DNA from: Bacilli bacterium
Lineage (GTDB): Bacteria > Bacillota_I > Bacilli_A > RFN20 > CAG-826
Length of the DNA: 34,623 nt
Direction: 5' to 3'
Assembly (NCBI GenBank): GCA_024408565.1
Contig: JAKSUW010000010.1
Coordinates: forward strand, 1-34,623
The notes under the pieces were generated by a model. The model had not been told where the DNA came from, made no database searches, and saw only the letters and a program-made list of their open reading frames with translations. The translations under genes were made by a program, and so were the position numbers. This document shows positions 12,131-28,728 of this stretch, one piece after another; positions within the stretch are counted from its first letter, which is position 1, and the number at the start of each line of letters is the position of its first letter.

Positions 12131-13105
12131 TTACTCTTTATTTAACTTTGGAAATAAATTTTCTTTTAACGGTAAACACGGTTTAATCTTATGATTAAAG
12201 ATTAACGAGAAAGCTAATAACATCAAATAGGCCATTAAAGAAAAACCAATAATATAGATAATAATAAATACTGGATTAGGCATAAAGGGTTGAATCTGTT
12301 TAAGGATTGGAATCACCGTGGGGAAATGCGAAGAAATATAAAACATGTTAACCACTTGTCCATCAACCCCACTCCGCACCGCTGGTAAGCATTGATAAGT
12401 CGACTCATTAATAACCACCGCGATTAATACCGTCGCGGTAAAAATGGCAAGCGAGGGTAAAAATTGCTTCAGTGTTAATTTCGCCCGTCGGTAATAGGCA
12501 ATATAAATCGCTAGTGCAATCATCACTCCGTGGTGCACCATCGTGTGGATATTAACATAGATGATATCGTTAAAAACCGGGACCGGATAAAAATAATTGG
12601 CTAAGCCACCAAAGACCATAAAGACAATGGAGAAATTTTCCATGATGTCACGGAGCTTACCATCGTTTAATAAAAACACAAACGGCAAGATATAAAAGGG
12701 TAATGAACAAAATTGAAAGGGAAAGCGATTCCACCGATAGGTTTCAGTAAGAACACCATCATTGTAATAATAAAAGTAAGTAAATTGGCCAATCAGTTCT
12801 AAGACAAAAATAATAAACCAGCCCACAAAAATAATTAAACGGTAAGATCTTTCGTTCGCATGGCTAGCAAATTTTAATAAAAGGAAAGTGGCCAGGACCA
12901 AAATCCCTAACCACATCAGATGGAACCAATGGAAAGGCTTTTGAAACTCGCCTTTACTCGCTAAAAGCATCGCTAACGGTTCAACTGGCCCTAATAGTTT
13001 TAGCATTAACAAAGTAAAGAAGAGTCCAAAAACCGCTACGATAGCAAAGAAAACGATTAACCGCCAACGGAGTGAGTCGAAATTCTTAGCTATTTTTTGG
13101 TTCAT
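12131..13105 (-). CDS. YwaF/TIGR02206-like integral membrane protein
   Basis: 324 residues with about eight to nine hydrophobic segments and short polar loops. The segment RWNRFPFQFCSLPFYILPF and the later HTMVHHGVMIAL resemble the conserved parts of the YwaF/TIGR02206 family, whose function is unknown. It is longer than most members because of an extra N-terminal pair of helices. It lies between ribF and rpsO, which are usually adjacent, and has its own promoter (GTGAAA-17-TATAAT). No Shine-Dalgarno sequence precedes the ATG; a short hairpin occupies the leader instead. Family assignment is moderate; it could be another polytopic membrane protein. Confidence 0.65.
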   Translation of the reverse strand: MNQKIAKNFDSLRWRLIVFFAIVAVFGLFFTLLMLKLLGPVEPLAMLLASKGEFQKPFHWFHLMWLGILVLATFLLLKFASHANERSYRLIIFVGWFIIFVLELIGQFTYFYYYNDGVLTETYRWNRFPFQFCSLPFYILPFVFLLNDGKLRDIMENFSIVFMVFGGLANYFYPVPVFNDIIYVNIHTMVHHGVMIALAIYIAYYRRAKLTLKQFLPSLAIFTATVLIAVVINESTYQCLPAVRSGVDGQVVNMFYISSHFPTVIPILKQIQPFMPNPVFIIIYIIGFSLMAYLMLLAFSLIFNHKIKPCLPLKENLFPKLNKE

Positions 13106-13182: not shown

Positions 13183-14064
13183 CTAGCGCTTATTTAAACT
13201 AACGAGGTCGGCGTTAATTTGTTTAATTAATGCTTTCTCGCCACTAAACTTTTTTTCTGGACGGAGAAAATCAATAAATTCGATGTACATTTCTTGGTTA
13301 TATAAATTACCTTTAAAGTGAGGAATATGCACTTCCACAATTGGGATTGATAGTTTATTAACGGTTGGGTGCACTCCGACATTAGCGATGCCTAAACGCG
13401 GAATCCCTAATACATAAGTGATAACTTTATAAACCCCAAACTTCGGAACAACATAATCGTCTAAGATATTGATATTCGCGGTCGGGAAATTTAACGCGGC
13501 TCCCTTTTGAAAACCACGCGTTACTCGTCCACGAATTTGGTATGGGCGGCCTAAATATTCCGCGGCTTTTTTCACTTCACCGCGTTTAATAAAGGAAGCA
13601 ATATCATAACTTGAGATTTTCTTATTGGCTTTCTTCACAAATTTTACAAGATGAACCGGATAATAACGCTTTAAATAGGCGATATTACCTTGCCGGTTTT
13701 TGCCAAAGGCAAAATCGGCACCCGCAAATAGGGCGCTGATATTTAAACGATCAAAAAACTTTTCTTTGAATTGTTCACGGGTAATGTTTTTAAATTGGTT
13801 GTTAAACGGGAAAACGAAAATATAATCCACCCCAAGAACTTTAAATAAGTTCACGCGGGCGCTTAAACTCGTAAGATTCTTTCGTCCTTTGACGTTACTA
13901 TCAAAGGTAATAACCCCAACTTTATCTTCACAATGAATCCGCGCTTCGTTAATCAAGCGTTGATGCGCAATATGGACGCCATCAAAATAGCCTAAACAAA
14001 GCGCTAATTTATCTTTAAGTTTCGGAACATTAGTTAAGGAAGCGTTGATTTTATAAACTTTCAT
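13183..14064 (-). CDS. ribF: Bifunctional riboflavin kinase / FAD synthetase
   Basis: Makes FMN from riboflavin and FAD from FMN. The N-terminal nucleotidyltransferase domain has the signature LGYFDGVHIAHQRLI and later FAGADFAFGKNRQGN. The C-terminal kinase domain begins near GRPYQIRGRVTRGFQKGAALNFPTAN, where the GxxxNFPTAN motif binds substrate. About 293 residues. The start chosen is the ATG at 14064 (MKVYKIN), which overlaps the end of truB by 14 bases; an upstream in-frame start would add 12 residues inside truB that do not look like family sequence. truB-ribF adjacency is conserved in Bacillota. Confidence 0.92.
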   Translation of the reverse strand: MKVYKINASLTNVPKLKDKLALCLGYFDGVHIAHQRLINEARIHCEDKVGVITFDSNVKGRKNLTSLSARVNLFKVLGVDYIFVFPFNNQFKNITREQFKEKFFDRLNISALFAGADFAFGKNRQGNIAYLKRYYPVHLVKFVKKANKKISSYDIASFIKRGEVKKAAEYLGRPYQIRGRVTRGFQKGAALNFPTANINILDDYVVPKFGVYKVITYVLGIPRLGIANVGVHPTVNKLSIPIVEVHIPHFKGNLYNQEMYIEFIDFLRPEKKFSGEKALIKQINADLVSLNKR

Positions 14065-14902
14065 AATGGAATCCACGTTCACAATAATATAACATATCAC
14101 GCTTATTATAAGCGTAAATTGCTACCGCCACGCCTTGATGAGTCATAATGACATAATCATCGTGACAAGCAAGCTTAATCGGTGCCCCGTTTTTAATCTT
14201 TTGATAATCCGGGCATTTAACTTGCTTAAACTTCAAAGCGTCTTTAATTTCAATGACATGCTTTTCTAGTATACATTCAAGTTTCTTACTCTCCGCGATT
14301 TTATATTCCCCGATACCATTACGTTCCAAATTCGATAGATAACCCACTTCATTTAATTTCTTAGCAATATCAACGCCAAGTGAACGGATATAGGTTCCTT
14401 TATCAACTTTCGCGTAGAAGATAATCTGGTTATCTTCGTAGTGAATAAGTTTTATATCATAGATATGTTGAGTGCGCTCTTTAACTTTAACAGCTTGGTT
14501 TTTTCGCGCGTATTTATAAAGCGGTTTCCCTTTTAATTTAATCGCACTATAAATAGGCGGCACTTGTTTAATTTCGCCAAGAAAAGATTCTAAAACTGCA
14601 CGAATTTCTTCTTTGGTGTGTTTTTTCGGCTTCTTTTGTTCAATGACCTTACCCGTCACATCATAAGTATCCGTCATTTTTCCTAACGTTAATTCTGCGA
14701 TATATTCTTTGCTTTGATTTTCTAGATAAGGCAAAATCTTGGTTCCTTCGTTTAGACCAACGATTAATAATCCACTCGCGAATGGATCAAGCGTTCCGGC
14801 GTGACCAACTTTCTTGGTTTTGAATTGGCGTTTTAAAACCCGGATAACATCATATGAGGTCATCCCAACCGCTTTCCGCACTAACAAGATGCCATGTTTC
14901 AT
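14051..14902 (-). CDS. truB: tRNA pseudouridine(55) synthase
   Basis: Isomerises U55 in the T loop of tRNAs. The catalytic motif GHAGTLDPFASGLL carries the Asp nucleophile. KVGHAG, PPIYSAIKLKGKPLYKYAR and the RSLGVDIA segment are further TruB marks, followed by a short C-terminal PUA-like part. 283 residues. It is the first gene of the truB-ribF pair. Only 23 bases separate its ATG from that of the divergent TtcA-like gene; there is no ribosome binding site, and a TATAAT ends seven bases before the ATG, so a leaderless mRNA is likely. Confidence 0.94.
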   Translation of the reverse strand: MKHGILLVRKAVGMTSYDVIRVLKRQFKTKKVGHAGTLDPFASGLLIVGLNEGTKILPYLENQSKEYIAELTLGKMTDTYDVTGKVIEQKKPKKHTKEEIRAVLESFLGEIKQVPPIYSAIKLKGKPLYKYARKNQAVKVKERTQHIYDIKLIHYEDNQIIFYAKVDKGTYIRSLGVDIAKKLNEVGYLSNLERNGIGEYKIAESKKLECILEKHVIEIKDALKFKQVKCPDYQKIKNGAPIKLACHDDYVIMTHQGVAVAIYAYNKRDMLYYCERGFHYESL

Positions 14903-14903
14903 A

Positions 14904-14923
14904 TTTAATATTATAATATTAAA
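14904..14923. promoter_or_regulatory. Perfect 20-bp palindrome acting as a divergent -10 region
   Basis: TTTAATATTATAATATTAAA is its own reverse complement and fills the gap between truB and the TtcA-like gene. It contains TATAAT on both strands (14912-14917 plus; 14915-14910 minus), 8 and 7 bases from the respective ATGs. Neither gene has a Shine-Dalgarno sequence. Confidence 0.6.
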
Positions 14924-14925
14924 CG

Positions 14926-15654
14926 ATGAAGGCGATTCGGATTATTTTAGCGGGCGTTCGTAACGCGGATAAGACTTATCATCTCTTTAAGAAGGGCGAT
15001 AAAATCGTTGTCGGCATTAGTGGCGGCAAAGATTCTTTAGTGCTTTTTTACGCTTTAACGCTCTACCAAAAGTTCGCCCACACCGACTTTAAAATTTATC
15101 CCGTGATGCTTAATCTAGGCTTCCCAAACTTTAACCCCACTAAATTAAAAACTTGGTTTAAAAAACTTGGTTACCCATTAATTATTAATGACGCCAGTAA
15201 CGTTTACCCCATCTTAAAAGCGAACCAAAAACAAAAGAAACATTTACCATGTTCCATTTGTTCAAGAATGAAAAAGGCGATTATTAACGCGGTCGCCAAA
15301 GAATTAAAATGCAATAAAGTCGCGTTCGCGCATCACATGGATGATGCGGTTGAGACTTTATTTATGAATATCTTTTATGCGGGTAAAATCGCTACCTTTG
15401 AACCCAAGATGCATCTAAGTAACGCGAACATTAATTTTATTCGTCCTTTAATCTATTCAAAGGAAATCGATATCGCGCGATGCGCAAAAGAGGAAAAACT
15501 GCCGGTTTTAAAATCCAATTGCCCCGCTGATAAACAAACCAATCGTTACGAAATTAAGAAGTGGCTAATGGCAATTAGTAAAGATAGTCCACTCGTAATG
15601 AAAAACGTTTATACATCACTAAAGAACACTAAACAGATAAAACTTTGGCCGTAA
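14926..15654 (+). CDS. PP-loop ATPase of the TtcA/TilS superfamily (probable tRNA 2-thiolation enzyme)
   Basis: 242 residues. The PP-loop VGISGGKDSL binds ATP and adenylates the substrate. The pattern LPCSICSRMKK (C-x2-C) and the later NCPAD match the TtcA family, which uses an iron-sulfur cluster to thiolate tRNA; AFAHHMDDAVETLF is the usual second motif. The exact target base cannot be told from sequence; TtcA acts on C32, and relatives act on other positions. It is the only plus-strand gene within the truB-to-rbfA region and splits an otherwise conserved gene order. Start and promoter are unusual: no ribosome binding site, and a TATAAT eight bases before the ATG. Confidence 0.85.
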   Translation: MKAIRIILAGVRNADKTYHLFKKGDKIVVGISGGKDSLVLFYALTLYQKFAHTDFKIYPVMLNLGFPNFNPTKLKTWFKKLGYPLIINDASNVYPILKANQKQKKHLPCSICSRMKKAIINAVAKELKCNKVAFAHHMDDAVETLFMNIFYAGKIATFEPKMHLSNANINFIRPLIYSKEIDIARCAKEEKLPVLKSNCPADKQTNRYEIKKWLMAISKDSPLVMKNVYTSLKNTKQIKLWP

Positions 15655-15672: not shown

Positions 15673-16164
15673 TTAGTCCATAGCCACAAACATGGCTTGG
15701 ATTCCGTTTTTATCAGTCGAACTAGTAATTGCAATGCTAACTTTGTCATCTATTTTTGGGTTTTCGACACAATAAATCACATCAAAAAGAACAGTCTCAT
15801 CATCTTTAGGCAACGCGAATTTATTTTTGATGTTCTCGGGTGAGTCATTCATAAAATTTAGAATGCCGCCATCGTATTTAGTAAGTGTAGTATCATTAAA
15901 TGTTACTTCGACCGGTTGTTTTACATCAATGATGTGGGAATACCCTTCTTTTGAGTCGAGAAAAATCAAAGCAGACATATTCGTCACAGCCTTTTCAACG
16001 AGTGAAATTTTAAAGGTGATTTTCTCTCCTTTCTTGGCATCAAAACTATCAGAAATCAAACCCATGTCTCCCCACTTGTTAATATTAATGATTTTATCTC
16101 CACCACCACACGCGGTAACTAAAAAAGCCGCTCCTAATAATGGAATAATTTTATTTCTAAGCAT
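15673..16164 (-). CDS. Small putative lipoprotein
   Basis: 163 residues. Signal peptide MLRNKIIPLLGAAFLVTAC has lipobox LVTAC (Cys19), followed by GGGDK. I do not recognise the mature part: about 140 residues with alternating hydrophobic and polar positions, suggesting a beta-sandwich (for example KKGEKITFKISLVEKAV and KVSIAITSS). It has its own promoter and a strong AGGAGG ribosome binding site. It lies downstream of rbfA on the same strand, where truB would normally follow. The signal-plus-CGGG start resembles the lipoprotein at 28757-29359, but the mature proteins do not align obviously. Confidence 0.75.
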   Translation of the reverse strand: MLRNKIIPLLGAAFLVTACGGGDKIININKWGDMGLISDSFDAKKGEKITFKISLVEKAVTNMSALIFLDSKEGYSHIIDVKQPVEVTFNDTTLTKYDGGILNFMNDSPENIKNKFALPKDDETVLFDVIYCVENPKIDDKVSIAITSSTDKNGIQAMFVAMD

Positions 16165-16222: not shown

Positions 16223-16579
16223 TTATCTTTTCTTCTTCATACGGTTAAGCGCCCGCTCATCTTTTTTGAGTAATTCGTTCATTTTTTCATCGATGATGAA
16301 ACGCTCATCATAAATAAAACGAATCTCAGGCGTTTTATATAAAGAAATTTTTTGGGCTAGTTCATGGCGAAAGTACGGAGCCATCTGGGTAAGCTTTGCG
16401 AATGATTTCTTTTGATCCTTCGCGTTTAAAAACGAAACATAAACTTTCGCAAAACTATAATCATTCGTGACTTCGATCTTATTCACCGAAACAAAACCAA
16501 TCTTCGCGTTCGCCGCTTTTAAAACAATATCGCGGATATCGCGGTCAATCATCGCTTTGATTCTTGGCTTCCGGTCCAT
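16223..16579 (-). CDS. rbfA: Ribosome-binding factor A
   Basis: 118 residues, a normal length. RbfA helps mature the 5' end of 16S rRNA in late 30S assembly. The single KH-like domain shows the family pattern: DIVLKAANAKIGFVSVNKIEVTNDYSFAKVYVSF, then a helix with FRHELAQKISLYKTPEIRFIYDE. A basic tail (RALNRMKKKR) ends the protein. It starts two bases after the infB stop and is the last clear member of the rimP-nusA-infB-rbfA operon. Confidence 0.94.
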   Translation of the reverse strand: MDRKPRIKAMIDRDIRDIVLKAANAKIGFVSVNKIEVTNDYSFAKVYVSFLNAKDQKKSFAKLTQMAPYFRHELAQKISLYKTPEIRFIYDERFIIDEKMNELLKKDERALNRMKKKR

Positions 16580-16581
16580 AA

Positions 16582-18417
16582 TTACTTAACGGTTTCTTCT
16601 TTCATTTCGTAGGCTTCAATCATGTCGCCTTCGTGAATATCGTTATAACCTAAGATGGTTGCACCACATTCAAAACCGTTCTTGACATCACTCGCATCAT
16701 CTTTAAAACGTTTAAGCGAACCAAGTTCACCATCATAAATAACCACGCCATCACGGACAAGATGGACTTTACTTCTCGCTTTGATGTGACCTTCAGTCAC
16801 ATAACAACCCGCGATGGTAAGCTTATTCGCCTTAAAGAGATTACGCACTTCCATTTGACCAATACTCACTTCTTTTAGTTCAGGTTTGAGCATACCTTTT
16901 AAGGCACCTTCAATTTCTTCAATCATCGCGTAGATAATCCGGTGTAAACGAATTTCCACTTTCTCTTCTTCCGCTTTCGCCTTAACGTTTGCGCTTGGAC
17001 GAACGTTAAAGCCATAAATAATCGCGTTACTCGCGGATGCTAAAGCAATATCACTATCGGTGATCGCACCGGCGGTCGCTCGAATCACATTCACCTTAAC
17101 ACCAGGAATATTAATCTTATTCACACTACTTTTTAAGGCTTCGCATGAGCCGGTTGAGTCCGCTCTAATTAAAAGGTTAAGCGAGGTAATTTCGCCTTCT
17201 TGGGCTTGTTTATATAAATCATCAAGACTCCGCGCCGCGCTACCTTGTAAATCGTGTTCTTTCTTCGCTAAGGAACGTTTAAAAGCAATATCACGTGCTT
17301 CCTTTTCCGTTGGGAACGCCATAAAGTGATCGCCCGCGTTAGGTACTTCACTTAAACCAGTCACACTCACTGGTGTAGCTGGCGTCGCACTCTTTAACAC
17401 TTTGTTAAATTCATTGACCATCCGGCGGATGTGACCGTAACTAGTACCCACGACGACATAATCACTATTATTTAAGGTTCCGTTTTGAACTAATAAGGTC
17501 GCTTTTGGTCCTTCGCCTTTATCTAGTTTTGCTTCTAGCACCGTCCCCATCGCGTAGCGATTAGGATTGGCTTTTAATTCTAAAACTTCACTTAAAGTAA
17601 TAATACTTTCTAAAAGATTATCAAGACCTTTGCCCGTCTTGGCACTAATCTCACAGAAAATATTTTCACCACCATATTCTTCGGGAATAATTTCGTGATT
17701 CATTAATTCGTTTTTGACTTTCTCGGGGTTCGCACCATCTTTATCAATCTTATTGATGGCGACAATAATTGGCGCTCTCGCGGCCCGGGCGTGATCAATC
17801 GCTTCAATGGTCTGCGGCATCACACCATCATCGGCGGCGACGACTAAAACCACGATATCAGTGACACTTGCCCCGCGACTTCTCATCGCGGTAAAGGCTT
17901 CGTGACCCGGAGTATCGATAAAAGTAATCTTTTTTCCTTTTACGTCTTTTTGGTAGGCACCGATTGCCTGAGAAATGCCACCGACTTCCCCCGCAGCGAC
18001 ATGACTATTACGAATCGCGTCAATTAAAGTCGTCTTACCATGGTCAACGTGACCCATAATGGTAATGACCGGTGGGCGTTCCACTAAATCTTCTTTCTTA
18101 TCTTTAATTTCAACTTCTTCAAAGTTTTCGGCGCTCACGACTTTTTCTTTCTTGACATCGTAACCAAAGTTTAAGCAAACTTCGCCAATGCTATCATCAT
18201 CAAGCATTTGGTTAATTGTCACCATCTTCTTCTGCAAGAAGAAATACTTAATGATATCACTTGGGAGGATGTTAAGTTGTTTCGCGAGTTCGCCAACACT
18301 TAATGAGCGAGTAAACACGAAGACACCATTATTTACTTTGTTAAAGTTTTTCTTATGGTCTTTATTAAAACTCACGTTACTAATTCGTTGTTTGTTTTTA
18401 AAGTTGTTATTCTTCAT
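16582..18417 (-). CDS. infB: Translation initiation factor IF-2
   Basis: A GTPase that places fMet-tRNA on the 30S subunit and promotes subunit joining. 611 residues: a short N-terminal region with one IF2-N domain (LSVGELAKQLNILPSDIIKYFF), without the long linker of larger forms; the G domain with GHVDHGKTTL, DTPGHEAF and NKIDK; then domains II-IV, the last binding fMet-tRNA. The ATG at 18417 is chosen because it lies eight bases from GGAGG; an in-frame GTG three codons earlier lies inside that site. It follows nusA directly; the ylxR and ylxQ genes that usually separate them are absent. Confidence 0.96.
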   Translation of the reverse strand: MKNNNFKNKQRISNVSFNKDHKKNFNKVNNGVFVFTRSLSVGELAKQLNILPSDIIKYFFLQKKMVTINQMLDDDSIGEVCLNFGYDVKKEKVVSAENFEEVEIKDKKEDLVERPPVITIMGHVDHGKTTLIDAIRNSHVAAGEVGGISQAIGAYQKDVKGKKITFIDTPGHEAFTAMRSRGASVTDIVVLVVAADDGVMPQTIEAIDHARAARAPIIVAINKIDKDGANPEKVKNELMNHEIIPEEYGGENIFCEISAKTGKGLDNLLESIITLSEVLELKANPNRYAMGTVLEAKLDKGEGPKATLLVQNGTLNNSDYVVVGTSYGHIRRMVNEFNKVLKSATPATPVSVTGLSEVPNAGDHFMAFPTEKEARDIAFKRSLAKKEHDLQGSAARSLDDLYKQAQEGEITSLNLLIRADSTGSCEALKSSVNKINIPGVKVNVIRATAGAITDSDIALASASNAIIYGFNVRPSANVKAKAEEEKVEIRLHRIIYAMIEEIEGALKGMLKPELKEVSIGQMEVRNLFKANKLTIAGCYVTEGHIKARSKVHLVRDGVVIYDGELGSLKRFKDDASDVKNGFECGATILGYNDIHEGDMIEAYEMKEETVK

Positions 18418-18447
18418 GTCACTCACCTCCTTTATTAGTTAGTTAAA

Positions 18448-26924: not shown

Positions 26925-27540
26925 GAACAATTGACGCGGCAACACTCACATTTAAAGAATCTATATTCTTTATGGGAATCTTCGTGACGACATCGGCGAG
27001 TGATAAAATTGCCTCATTAACACCCCGGGCTTCGTTACCAAAAACCATCACAAATTGTGGTGATACTTTTAACTTATTAAATAGGGTCGCTCCCTTTAAT
27101 CCGGTTGCAATAATTTGGTGATCTTTTTTTAGTTCACGAAGTAACTTAATATCGCCATAACAAACATTAATATCAAAGATGATGTCTTTAGCGACGGCTA
27201 AACATTTCTCGTTATAGATTGAAACGGAGTGAGGTGACAACACTAAGTCAAAATAACCACATTCTTTCATTAAGTAGATAATTTTACCTAAGTTACTCGG
27301 GTCAGTAATTTCGTCTAAATAAATAATTCTTTTACCAAGTGGCTGACTATTTAGATACTTCACAATCCCCACCACTCCATCGTTAAGTTGATAGGCCGCT
27401 TTTAATAAATGGAGACGTCTCGCTTTATTAATTGATGCTTCATCAAAAACAAGAAAACACTTTTGTTTCACTTGTTCTTTATGTAAACGGAGTTTATTAA
27501 CTTCTTTTAGTTTGGTTTTACTAATCATTTCCATAATCAT
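26908..27540 (-). CDS. SpoU/TrmH-family RNA 2'-O-methyltransferase
   Basis: 210 residues. The SPOUT knot motifs are present: LDEITDPSNLGKII (motif 1), VFGNEARGV (motif 2) and IPIKNIDSLNVSVAASIVLHNL (motif 3), where the SAM-binding knot forms. Members methylate ribose in rRNA or tRNA; the target cannot be told from sequence. In many Bacillota a TrmH-family gene sits just upstream of pheS, as here. It overlaps the end of the preceding metallopeptidase gene. Three in-frame ATGs (27540, 27534, 27528) occur near the start and none has a clear ribosome binding site, so the exact start is uncertain. Confidence 0.88.
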   Translation of the reverse strand: MIMEMISKTKLKEVNKLRLHKEQVKQKCFLVFDEASINKARRLHLLKAAYQLNDGVVGIVKYLNSQPLGKRIIYLDEITDPSNLGKIIYLMKECGYFDLVLSPHSVSIYNEKCLAVAKDIIFDINVCYGDIKLLRELKKDHQIIATGLKGATLFNKLKVSPQFVMVFGNEARGVNEAILSLADVVTKIPIKNIDSLNVSVAASIVLHNLK

Positions 27541-28192
27541 AATGATGATGCGATAACGCCTTGCTTAACGCTTTATAGTTTGGACAATATTGATAGACAA
27601 GCGCATAAAAGTCTTTTGAATGATCAAAGAATTTATCATGGGCAAGTTCATGGACAATTACACTATCAATGATTGGTCCACTATAGTGAACGAGTTGTAA
27701 AGCAAAAGATAATGCCCCCGTATAACGACGGTTTGAACCATAACGGCTATTCATATCTCGTACCGTAATACGATAATGTTTAGTGCCCATTAATTTCTCT
27801 AAGCGTGGTAATTGAGATAATAGATAATCCTTTAATAAACTCTTTAAGAACTCATTTAAATCGATCTGACTTTTTACTTCAATATGATCAGGGAAGACAT
27901 GATTAACACTCGTGATAAGATATGGCATCTTCTTGCCAAAGATATAAACGTAGTTACGACCAATTGCCGGGGTGTATTTATTTTTCTCCGCTTTTTCAAT
28001 GAGACCTGGCGCAAAACGTTCTAGACCAGCGAAGATTTCTTTTTGGCTTGTCCGATATGGCGCGTTGATATTAAAGGTTAACGTTGGCGCATCATAACGA
28101 TAGTTAATGTTACGCATTCTCGGACGAAAATTAATCACGACTTGGTAGTTAGTGAACTCGTAAAGATAGTTAGTAATAATCGGCTCGTGCAT
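27521..28192 (-). CDS. YgjP/DUF45-type metallopeptidase
   Basis: 223 residues. The zinc motif VIVHELAHDKFFDHSKDF (HELAH plus a third His) and the preceding SRYGSNRRYTGALSFALQLV match the YgjP/M48-like DUF45 family, as does CPNYKALSKAL. The substrate is unknown; some members are thought to be cytoplasmic proteases. The start at 28192 (MHEPI) is chosen because a TATAAT ends seven bases before it; an upstream TTG at 28210 would lie before the promoter's -10. The mRNA is probably leaderless. The gene overlaps the SpoU gene, so the two are likely co-expressed. Confidence 0.83.
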   Translation of the reverse strand: MHEPIITNYLYEFTNYQVVINFRPRMRNINYRYDAPTLTFNINAPYRTSQKEIFAGLERFAPGLIEKAEKNKYTPAIGRNYVYIFGKKMPYLITSVNHVFPDHIEVKSQIDLNEFLKSLLKDYLLSQLPRLEKLMGTKHYRITVRDMNSRYGSNRRYTGALSFALQLVHYSGPIIDSVIVHELAHDKFFDHSKDFYALVYQYCPNYKALSKALSHHHYDYGND

Positions 28193-28199
28193 CAAAAAT

Positions 28200-28205
28200 A
28201 TTATA
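28200..28205 (-). promoter_or_regulatory. -10 box of the metallopeptidase gene (leaderless type)
   Basis: TATAAT on the minus strand, ending seven bases from the ATG at 28192, the same spacing as at truB. A possible -35 is TTATCA, 18 bases upstream. There is no ribosome binding site. Confidence 0.5.
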
Positions 28206-28242
28206 AACAATTGGTAAATATTTTGATAACATAAATAGCGTT

Positions 28243-28728
28243 ATGAAAAAGACTCTTGTGAGTGCGTGTCTTGTCGGTGATAAGGTCACTTATGATAAGC
28301 ATGGTCACTATCATCCCCTAATAAAAGAACTCTTAAAATACTACGAACTCGTGCCTTTTTGTCCAGAAGTCGAAGGGGGTTTAAAAATCCCACGGAAGAA
28401 AAGCGAACGCCGGCGGAACGAAGTCAAAAACGAAGTAGGTCTTGACGTCACTAAACAATTTAATCTTGGTGCGGAGAAAGCATTAAATATTTGCCAATAC
28501 CTTAATATTAAGATGGCTATCTTAAAAGAAGATTCACCTTCTTGTGGTGTGCATAAGATTTATAATGGCTTATTCCAAGGCCGCAAAATTCCGGGTCAAG
28601 GTTGGACGACCGAACTATTAACGAAACACGGCATTAAAGTCATTAGCGAAAACGAAATTGAAGATCTCCTCAAAATTAAAAAAGCGGAAGAAGACCGTAA
28701 ACAAGCAAAAGGAAAACCCCAAAAATAA
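28243..28728 (+). CDS. DUF523 family protein
   Basis: 161 residues. It matches DUF523: SACLVGDKVTYDKHG at the start, FCPEVEGGLKIPRK, DVTKQFNLGAEKAL, and AILKEDSPSCG followed by an ending GIKVISENEIEDL. The conserved cysteines (SAC, FCPE, SCG) suggest metal or thiol chemistry; no reaction is established that I can assign from sequence. The tail is Lys/Glu-rich. It is divergent from the metallopeptidase gene, has no ribosome binding site (TAAATA lies five bases before the ATG), and its last codons form the left arm of the terminator hairpin. Confidence 0.88.
   Translation: MKKTLVSACLVGDKVTYDKHGHYHPLIKELLKYYELVPFCPEVEGGLKIPRKKSERRRNEVKNEVGLDVTKQFNLGAEKALNICQYLNIKMAILKEDSPSCGVHKIYNGLFQGRKIPGQGWTTELLTKHGIKVISENEIEDLLKIKKAEEDRKQAKGKPQK

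Follow-up and report, generated by a model that had tools for sequence, protein, structure and literature searches.

We found that the spacer between truB and a divergently oriented ttcA-like gene is, with good probability, a bidirectional promoter of the kind described by Warman and Grainger, from which both transcripts would be leaderless or nearly so. The junction is real and its geometry is well conserved; its sequence and its conservation among relatives, like a genome-wide signal of the same type, are direct observations. In a spacer of only 23 bp it appears to bring together, more compactly than is usual, two ways of starting a bacterial gene that are already known. Both ingredients, bidirectional promoters and leaderless genes (PMC3160421, PMC12340547), are known, and no new mechanism is involved. 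The features that bear on this reading, all within the 34,623-nucleotide stretch of DNA analysed here (the window), are the following.

13183 to 14076, minus strand: ribF, overlapping the 3′ end of truB
14051 to 14902, minus strand: truB, tRNA pseudouridine-55 synthase (TIGR00431, 223.7 bits against a cut-off of 151)
14889 to 14894, plus strand: weak -35-like hexamer ATGCCA (4/6), inside truB, 17 bp from the plus-strand -10
14902, minus strand: predicted truB mRNA start, the A of the ATG, from the position of the -10; a T precedes this A on the minus strand
14903 to 14925: truB/ttcA-like spacer, 23 bp, ATTTAATATTATAATATTAAACG, as read from the sequence
14904 to 14923: perfect 20-bp palindrome TTTAATATTATAATATTAAA, inside the spacer
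14910 to 14917: ATTATAAT, putative bidirectional core, in which the -10 elements of the two promoters overlap
14910 to 14915, minus strand: -10 TATAAT of truB, 7 bp to the ATG
14912 to 14917, plus strand: -10 TATAAT of the ttcA-like gene, 8 bp to the ATG
14925 to 14926, plus strand: predicted ttcA-like mRNA start, at the G (1-nt leader) or the A of the ATG, from the -10 position and a purine preference
14926 to 15654, plus strand: TtcA/TtuA-group PP-loop tRNA thiolase (TtcA-like; best match TtcA)
16223 to 18426, minus strand: rbfA and infB, the remaining operon genes, cut off from truB-ribF by the inverted ttcA-like gene

An earlier note on this DNA had described the 23-base spacer, the 20-bp palindrome, a TATAAT on each strand and the 7 and 8 bases that separate these from the ATGs, and direct reading bore out every detail. 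The truB start codon reads as CAT, at 14900-14902 on the minus strand, and that of the ttcA-like gene is the ATG at 14926-14928; both are backed by conserved N-termini in relatives, and they adjoin the two ends of TTTAATATTATAATATTAAA at distances of 1 and 2 bases. Within ATTATAAT the two TATAAT boxes have 4 bp in common. Neither gene has a Shine-Dalgarno (SD) site, as the note had also held, with no SD-like tetramer before the ATG on either side. The junction thereby shows two marks of leaderless genes, a -10 box 5-10 bp before the start codon and the absence of an SD site. We also looked for an intrinsic terminator at the junction; no G+C-rich stem followed by a T run was found, and we rejected a terminator reading of the palindrome.

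The identity of TruB is secure. The ttcA-like product scored 188.2 bits against the TtcA model NF007972, under the NCBIfam cut-off of 272, and we therefore named the gene ‘TtcA-like’ rather than assigning it to TtcA (tRNA 2-thiocytidine-32 synthetase). Both genes belong to tRNA modification, as the note had held. truB and ribF are neighbours in nearly all relatives examined and probably form one unit, with ribF second. The usual bacterial operon order is infB-rbfA-truB-ribF, and all four genes are found here in the same order and on the same strand. Unlike in that operon, an inverted ttcA-like gene stands between rbfA and truB, and truB-ribF would have a promoter of its own: in the window and in relatives, infB-rbfA lie on one strand, ttcA on the opposite strand and truB-ribF again on the first. 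This interruption leaves no simple read-in of truB-ribF from the upstream operon, so truB-ribF probably needs the junction promoter. In another Bacilli group (L044-L050) the block is rearranged, with the head-to-head truB/ttcA junction retained. The ttcA-like gene and rbfA are separated by a small lipoprotein gene (window 15673-16164) that is missing from the relative with 97% TtcA identity (L043), where rbfA begins about 20 bp after ttcA. On the other side, window 12131-13105 encodes a membrane protein with a match to Pfam TMEM164 (PF14808), a family that is familiar chiefly from eukaryotes.

The weight of evidence rests on relatives, not on the symmetry of the palindrome. We compared 61 distinct divergent truB/ttcA junctions, drawn from the family and from another Bacilli group. 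In the nearest relative (Bacilli bacterium isolate Horse_feces342, 97% TtcA identity), the spacer is identical letter for letter. Three junction types occur in the genus, with spacers of 23, 31 (L004, L005) and 50 bp (L007). The truB-side hexamer stands exactly 7 bp from the ATG in all three (TATAAT, TAAAAT and TAGAAT, respectively) and the ttcA-side hexamer stands 8, 9 and 10 bp away (TATAAT, TATAAT and TAGAAT); in the 31-bp and 50-bp types the two -10s are separate and do not overlap. The distance from hexamer to ATG is thus constant while spacer and palindrome vary, which fits the prediction of leaderless promoters. Across the 61 junctions, the core ATTATAAT occurs in 21 (shuffles: mean 2.2, maximum 8), an exact TATAAT lies 6-10 bp before ttcA in 35 (mean 2.1, maximum 7) and before truB in 11 (mean 2.1, maximum 6), and perfect palindromes of at least 14 bp occur in 15 (mean 1.3, maximum 5). 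One junction (L029) carries another symmetric core, TATGTTAACATA, 6 bp from both ATGs, which we read as a putative extended -10 (TGTTAACAT) on both strands.

The earlier note had proposed comparing the junction in relatives, with ordinary leaders as the observation that would speak against it, and the outcome was divided. None were found within the genus. In more distant genera (L033, L019, L148 and L169), however, the shared ATTATAAT lies within a longer spacer of 59-71 bp and SD-like sites precede one or both genes, and these SD-led junctions count against the bidirectional leaderless reading. The shared core has a scattered distribution on the TtcA tree, with nine changes, at least four of them forced by well-supported branches. 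Given this scatter, and given that the core also occurs with SD leaders, the bidirectional core is gained and lost separately from the leaderless state. Two peculiarities were seen in a congener assembly, G001: its ttcA-like gene is split in two frames (G001:C1:1258-1985; L007, L037), and one of its contigs, of 3.5 kb (C9, L006), has a further truB/ttcA junction, which resembles another genus and may be contamination.

The same -10 placement forms a class across the genome. TATAAT stands 6-9 bp before the start codon of 69 genes, whereas the 20 possible orderings of its letters have a median of 18; at other distances TATAAT precedes 13-28 genes. The start codons in this count were partly chosen by the signal. 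With permuted hexamers as the control for this choice, the signal is enriched in genes that open a transcription unit (43 of 284; 3-17 for other orderings). Thirteen divergent pairs have spacers of 60 bp or less, and in eight of these, C20:29408 among them, both genes lack an SD site and have a -10-like hexamer before the start; when one mismatch is allowed, the permuted hexamer ATAATT also gives 7 both-ended pairs out of 14, so that only exact-match counts are strong. Where the gap in leaderless-type genes is 6, the base before the start codon is a pyrimidine in 20 of 20, which fits a +1 at the purine of the start codon. As a set, the leaderless genes have no clear -35 and some have a TG before the -10 box. 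No 16S gene was found in this assembly, so the anti-SD was checked in relatives, where CCTCCTTTCT is intact in the nine with a complete 16S. Since the anti-SD is intact and many genes of this genome carry SD sites, SD-led and leaderless initiation coexist. Across the class, TATAATN(6-9)ATGA exceeds its reversed control in many Bacilli families and several-fold in some (for example G142, G187 and G205), a count too crude for ranking lineages; this suggests that other Bacilli lineages are also rich in leaderless genes and that the signal is wider than one family.

Symmetry of the palindrome alone is only moderately unlikely, because the spacer is almost all A/T (21 of 23 bases). Dinucleotide shuffles of the spacer gave a 20-bp palindrome in 194 of 20,000 trials (1%) and mononucleotide shuffles in 15 of 20,000 (<0.1%), and the genome holds eight perfect 20-bp palindromes and none longer (928.8 kb read), versus about 1.5 of that length expected arithmetically from base composition alone. 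With the ATTATAAT core fixed and the flanks shuffled, the frequency was 0.1%, and the full-length palindrome is therefore somewhat more symmetry than two overlapping -10s need. Other perfect palindromes centred on ATTATAAT, of 16-18 bp, are found at G000:C8:10359, C15:8066 and C21:49113, the last within a 176-bp divergent spacer.

On the bidirectional-promoter reading, RNA polymerase with the housekeeping sigma factor would bind the junction in either direction, one molecule at a time, the two -10 elements that overlap in ATTATAAT serving opposite directions. Transcription of truB(-ribF) would begin in one direction and that of the ttcA-like gene in the opposite one, each at its start codon or no more than 1-2 nt from it, and both mRNAs, leaderless or nearly so, would be translated without an SD site. 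The palindrome would be mostly a by-product of fitting two -10 boxes and their A/T-rich start regions into 23 bp in opposite orientations. Promoter activity, transcription starts and leaderless translation are what we infer for the junction, and the earlier proposal that both mRNAs would begin at or next to the AUG agrees with the geometry in the genus, the conservation in the family and the genome-wide TATAAT signal. The -35 regions that had been placed inside the opposite genes fared less well. The weak ATGCCA lies in truB, on the ttcA side, but no -35 for the truB side was found within the ttcA-like gene; the hexamer is not conserved in the genus, and a search among the congeners found no -35. 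Weak or missing -35 elements count against the bidirectional-promoter reading.

Like known bidirectional promoters (Warman, Grainger; PMC12825309, PMC10268837), the junction has overlapping -10s on opposite strands, lies between divergent protein genes and has a weak -35. Such promoters are defined by starts 7-25 bp apart (PMC10268837), a range that includes the 21-24 bp between the starts predicted here, although most described pairs are 18 bp apart (PMC12825309, PMC10268837). The junction differs further in that both transcripts would begin at start codons and that its symmetry is perfect over 20 bp. As in known leaderless genes (Zheng et al. 2011 PMC3160421; Deinococcus PMC12340547; Mycobacterium PMC3898074), a TATAAT/TANNNT stands 6-9 bp before the start, there is no SD site, and the genome also has SD-led genes. 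The Firmicutes examples in the 2011 survey came from Lactobacillales and Mycoplasma (PMC3160421), whereas the present junction belongs to an uncultured, small-genome Bacilli lineage and would place two leaderless genes on one core. Searches of open-licence papers for ttcA and truB in a divergent arrangement, and for leaderless genes with overlapping divergent promoters, returned nothing relevant.

The alternative that survives best is that two ordinary, independent leaderless promoters came so close, with shrinkage of the spacer, that their -10s fused, and that the overlap has no functional consequence. We give this somewhat less than an even chance; it overlaps the bidirectional-promoter reading, differing only in whether the sharing matters, and the likelihoods of the two do not sum to one. 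Spacers of 50, 31 and 23 bp with both -10s kept within one genus are what such merging would leave, and compact divergent leaderless pairs of unrelated genes exist elsewhere in the genome (C20:29408, 22 bp). Against it, ATTATAAT is found in many genera and also at junctions with long SD leaders, and the core is therefore not only a product of shrinkage.

At the other extreme, the palindromic double -10 could be the entire regulatory DNA of both leaderless genes, the orientation of polymerase setting the ratio of TruB(-RibF) to TtcA-like protein in a minimal coupling device that selection maintains in this lineage. We consider this doubtful, though some coupling of truB and the ttcA-like gene may occur. 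In published tests with E. coli, the two directions of bidirectional promoters competed little when activity was basal (PMC12825309). Together with the unconserved letters of the palindrome and the separate promoters of congeners, this leaves the single symmetric switch of the earlier note unsupported; the length and centre of the palindrome vary as well, the -10s are separate in two of the types in the genus, and neither a regulator nor a good -35 was found.

It is unlikely that the palindrome is a regulator's operator, and we put little stock in a dimeric regulator that would bind it to repress or switch the gene pair. The perfect 20-bp symmetry does span both -10 elements, palindromes of at least 14 bp recur at the truB/ttcA junction, and the arms change symmetrically in the genus, with TTTAATATT in L002 and TTTATTATT in L004 both mirrored in the opposite arm. 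The letters of an operator would be expected to persist, however, and here the letters, length and centre of the arms vary among relatives (ATTATAAT, ATTATATAAT, TATGTTAACATA), with identical arms only in the 97% relative; no regulator gene lies beside the junction, and congeners have non-overlapping promoters. Similarly improbable is that either mRNA, or both, begins within the opposite gene and crosses the palindrome as part of a normal leader. The lack of a strong -35 at the junction would be in keeping with such distant starts, but neither ATG is preceded by an SD site, the distance from -10 to ATG is conserved at 7-10 bp, and the sole other promoter-like site in 14600-15250 is weak, lies inside the ttcA-like gene and points away from truB. 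Mere coincidence in an A/T-rich spacer with no promoter is very hard to credit, since for all the spacer's composition and the eight 20-bp palindromes in the genome, the conservation of the junction is far above that of dinucleotide shuffles.

If the bidirectional leaderless reading is true, the junction is a case of extreme intergenic compression, made up of little more than two start codons and two -10 boxes, and it would document leaderless starts in reduced-genome, uncultured gut Bacilli, outside the groups surveyed in 2011. The junctions of the family, which span a shared core with SD leaders to a shared core without leaders, form a natural series useful for studying leader loss and the cost or gain of a shared -10.

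Two further divergent junctions were seen. A second compact one in the window (28193-28242) has a TATAAT 7 bp before the ATG of its minus-strand gene (27521-28192); the plus-strand gene at 28243 has no SD site and no clear -10 at such a distance. In the pair at G000:C20:29409-29430 (L124), formed by a PlsX-like gene and a putative lipoprotein gene (named by reading the translations only), the 22-bp spacer GTGTTTATTATATAATTAAAGC contains ATTATATAAT and has an exact TATAAT 6 bp from both ATGs.
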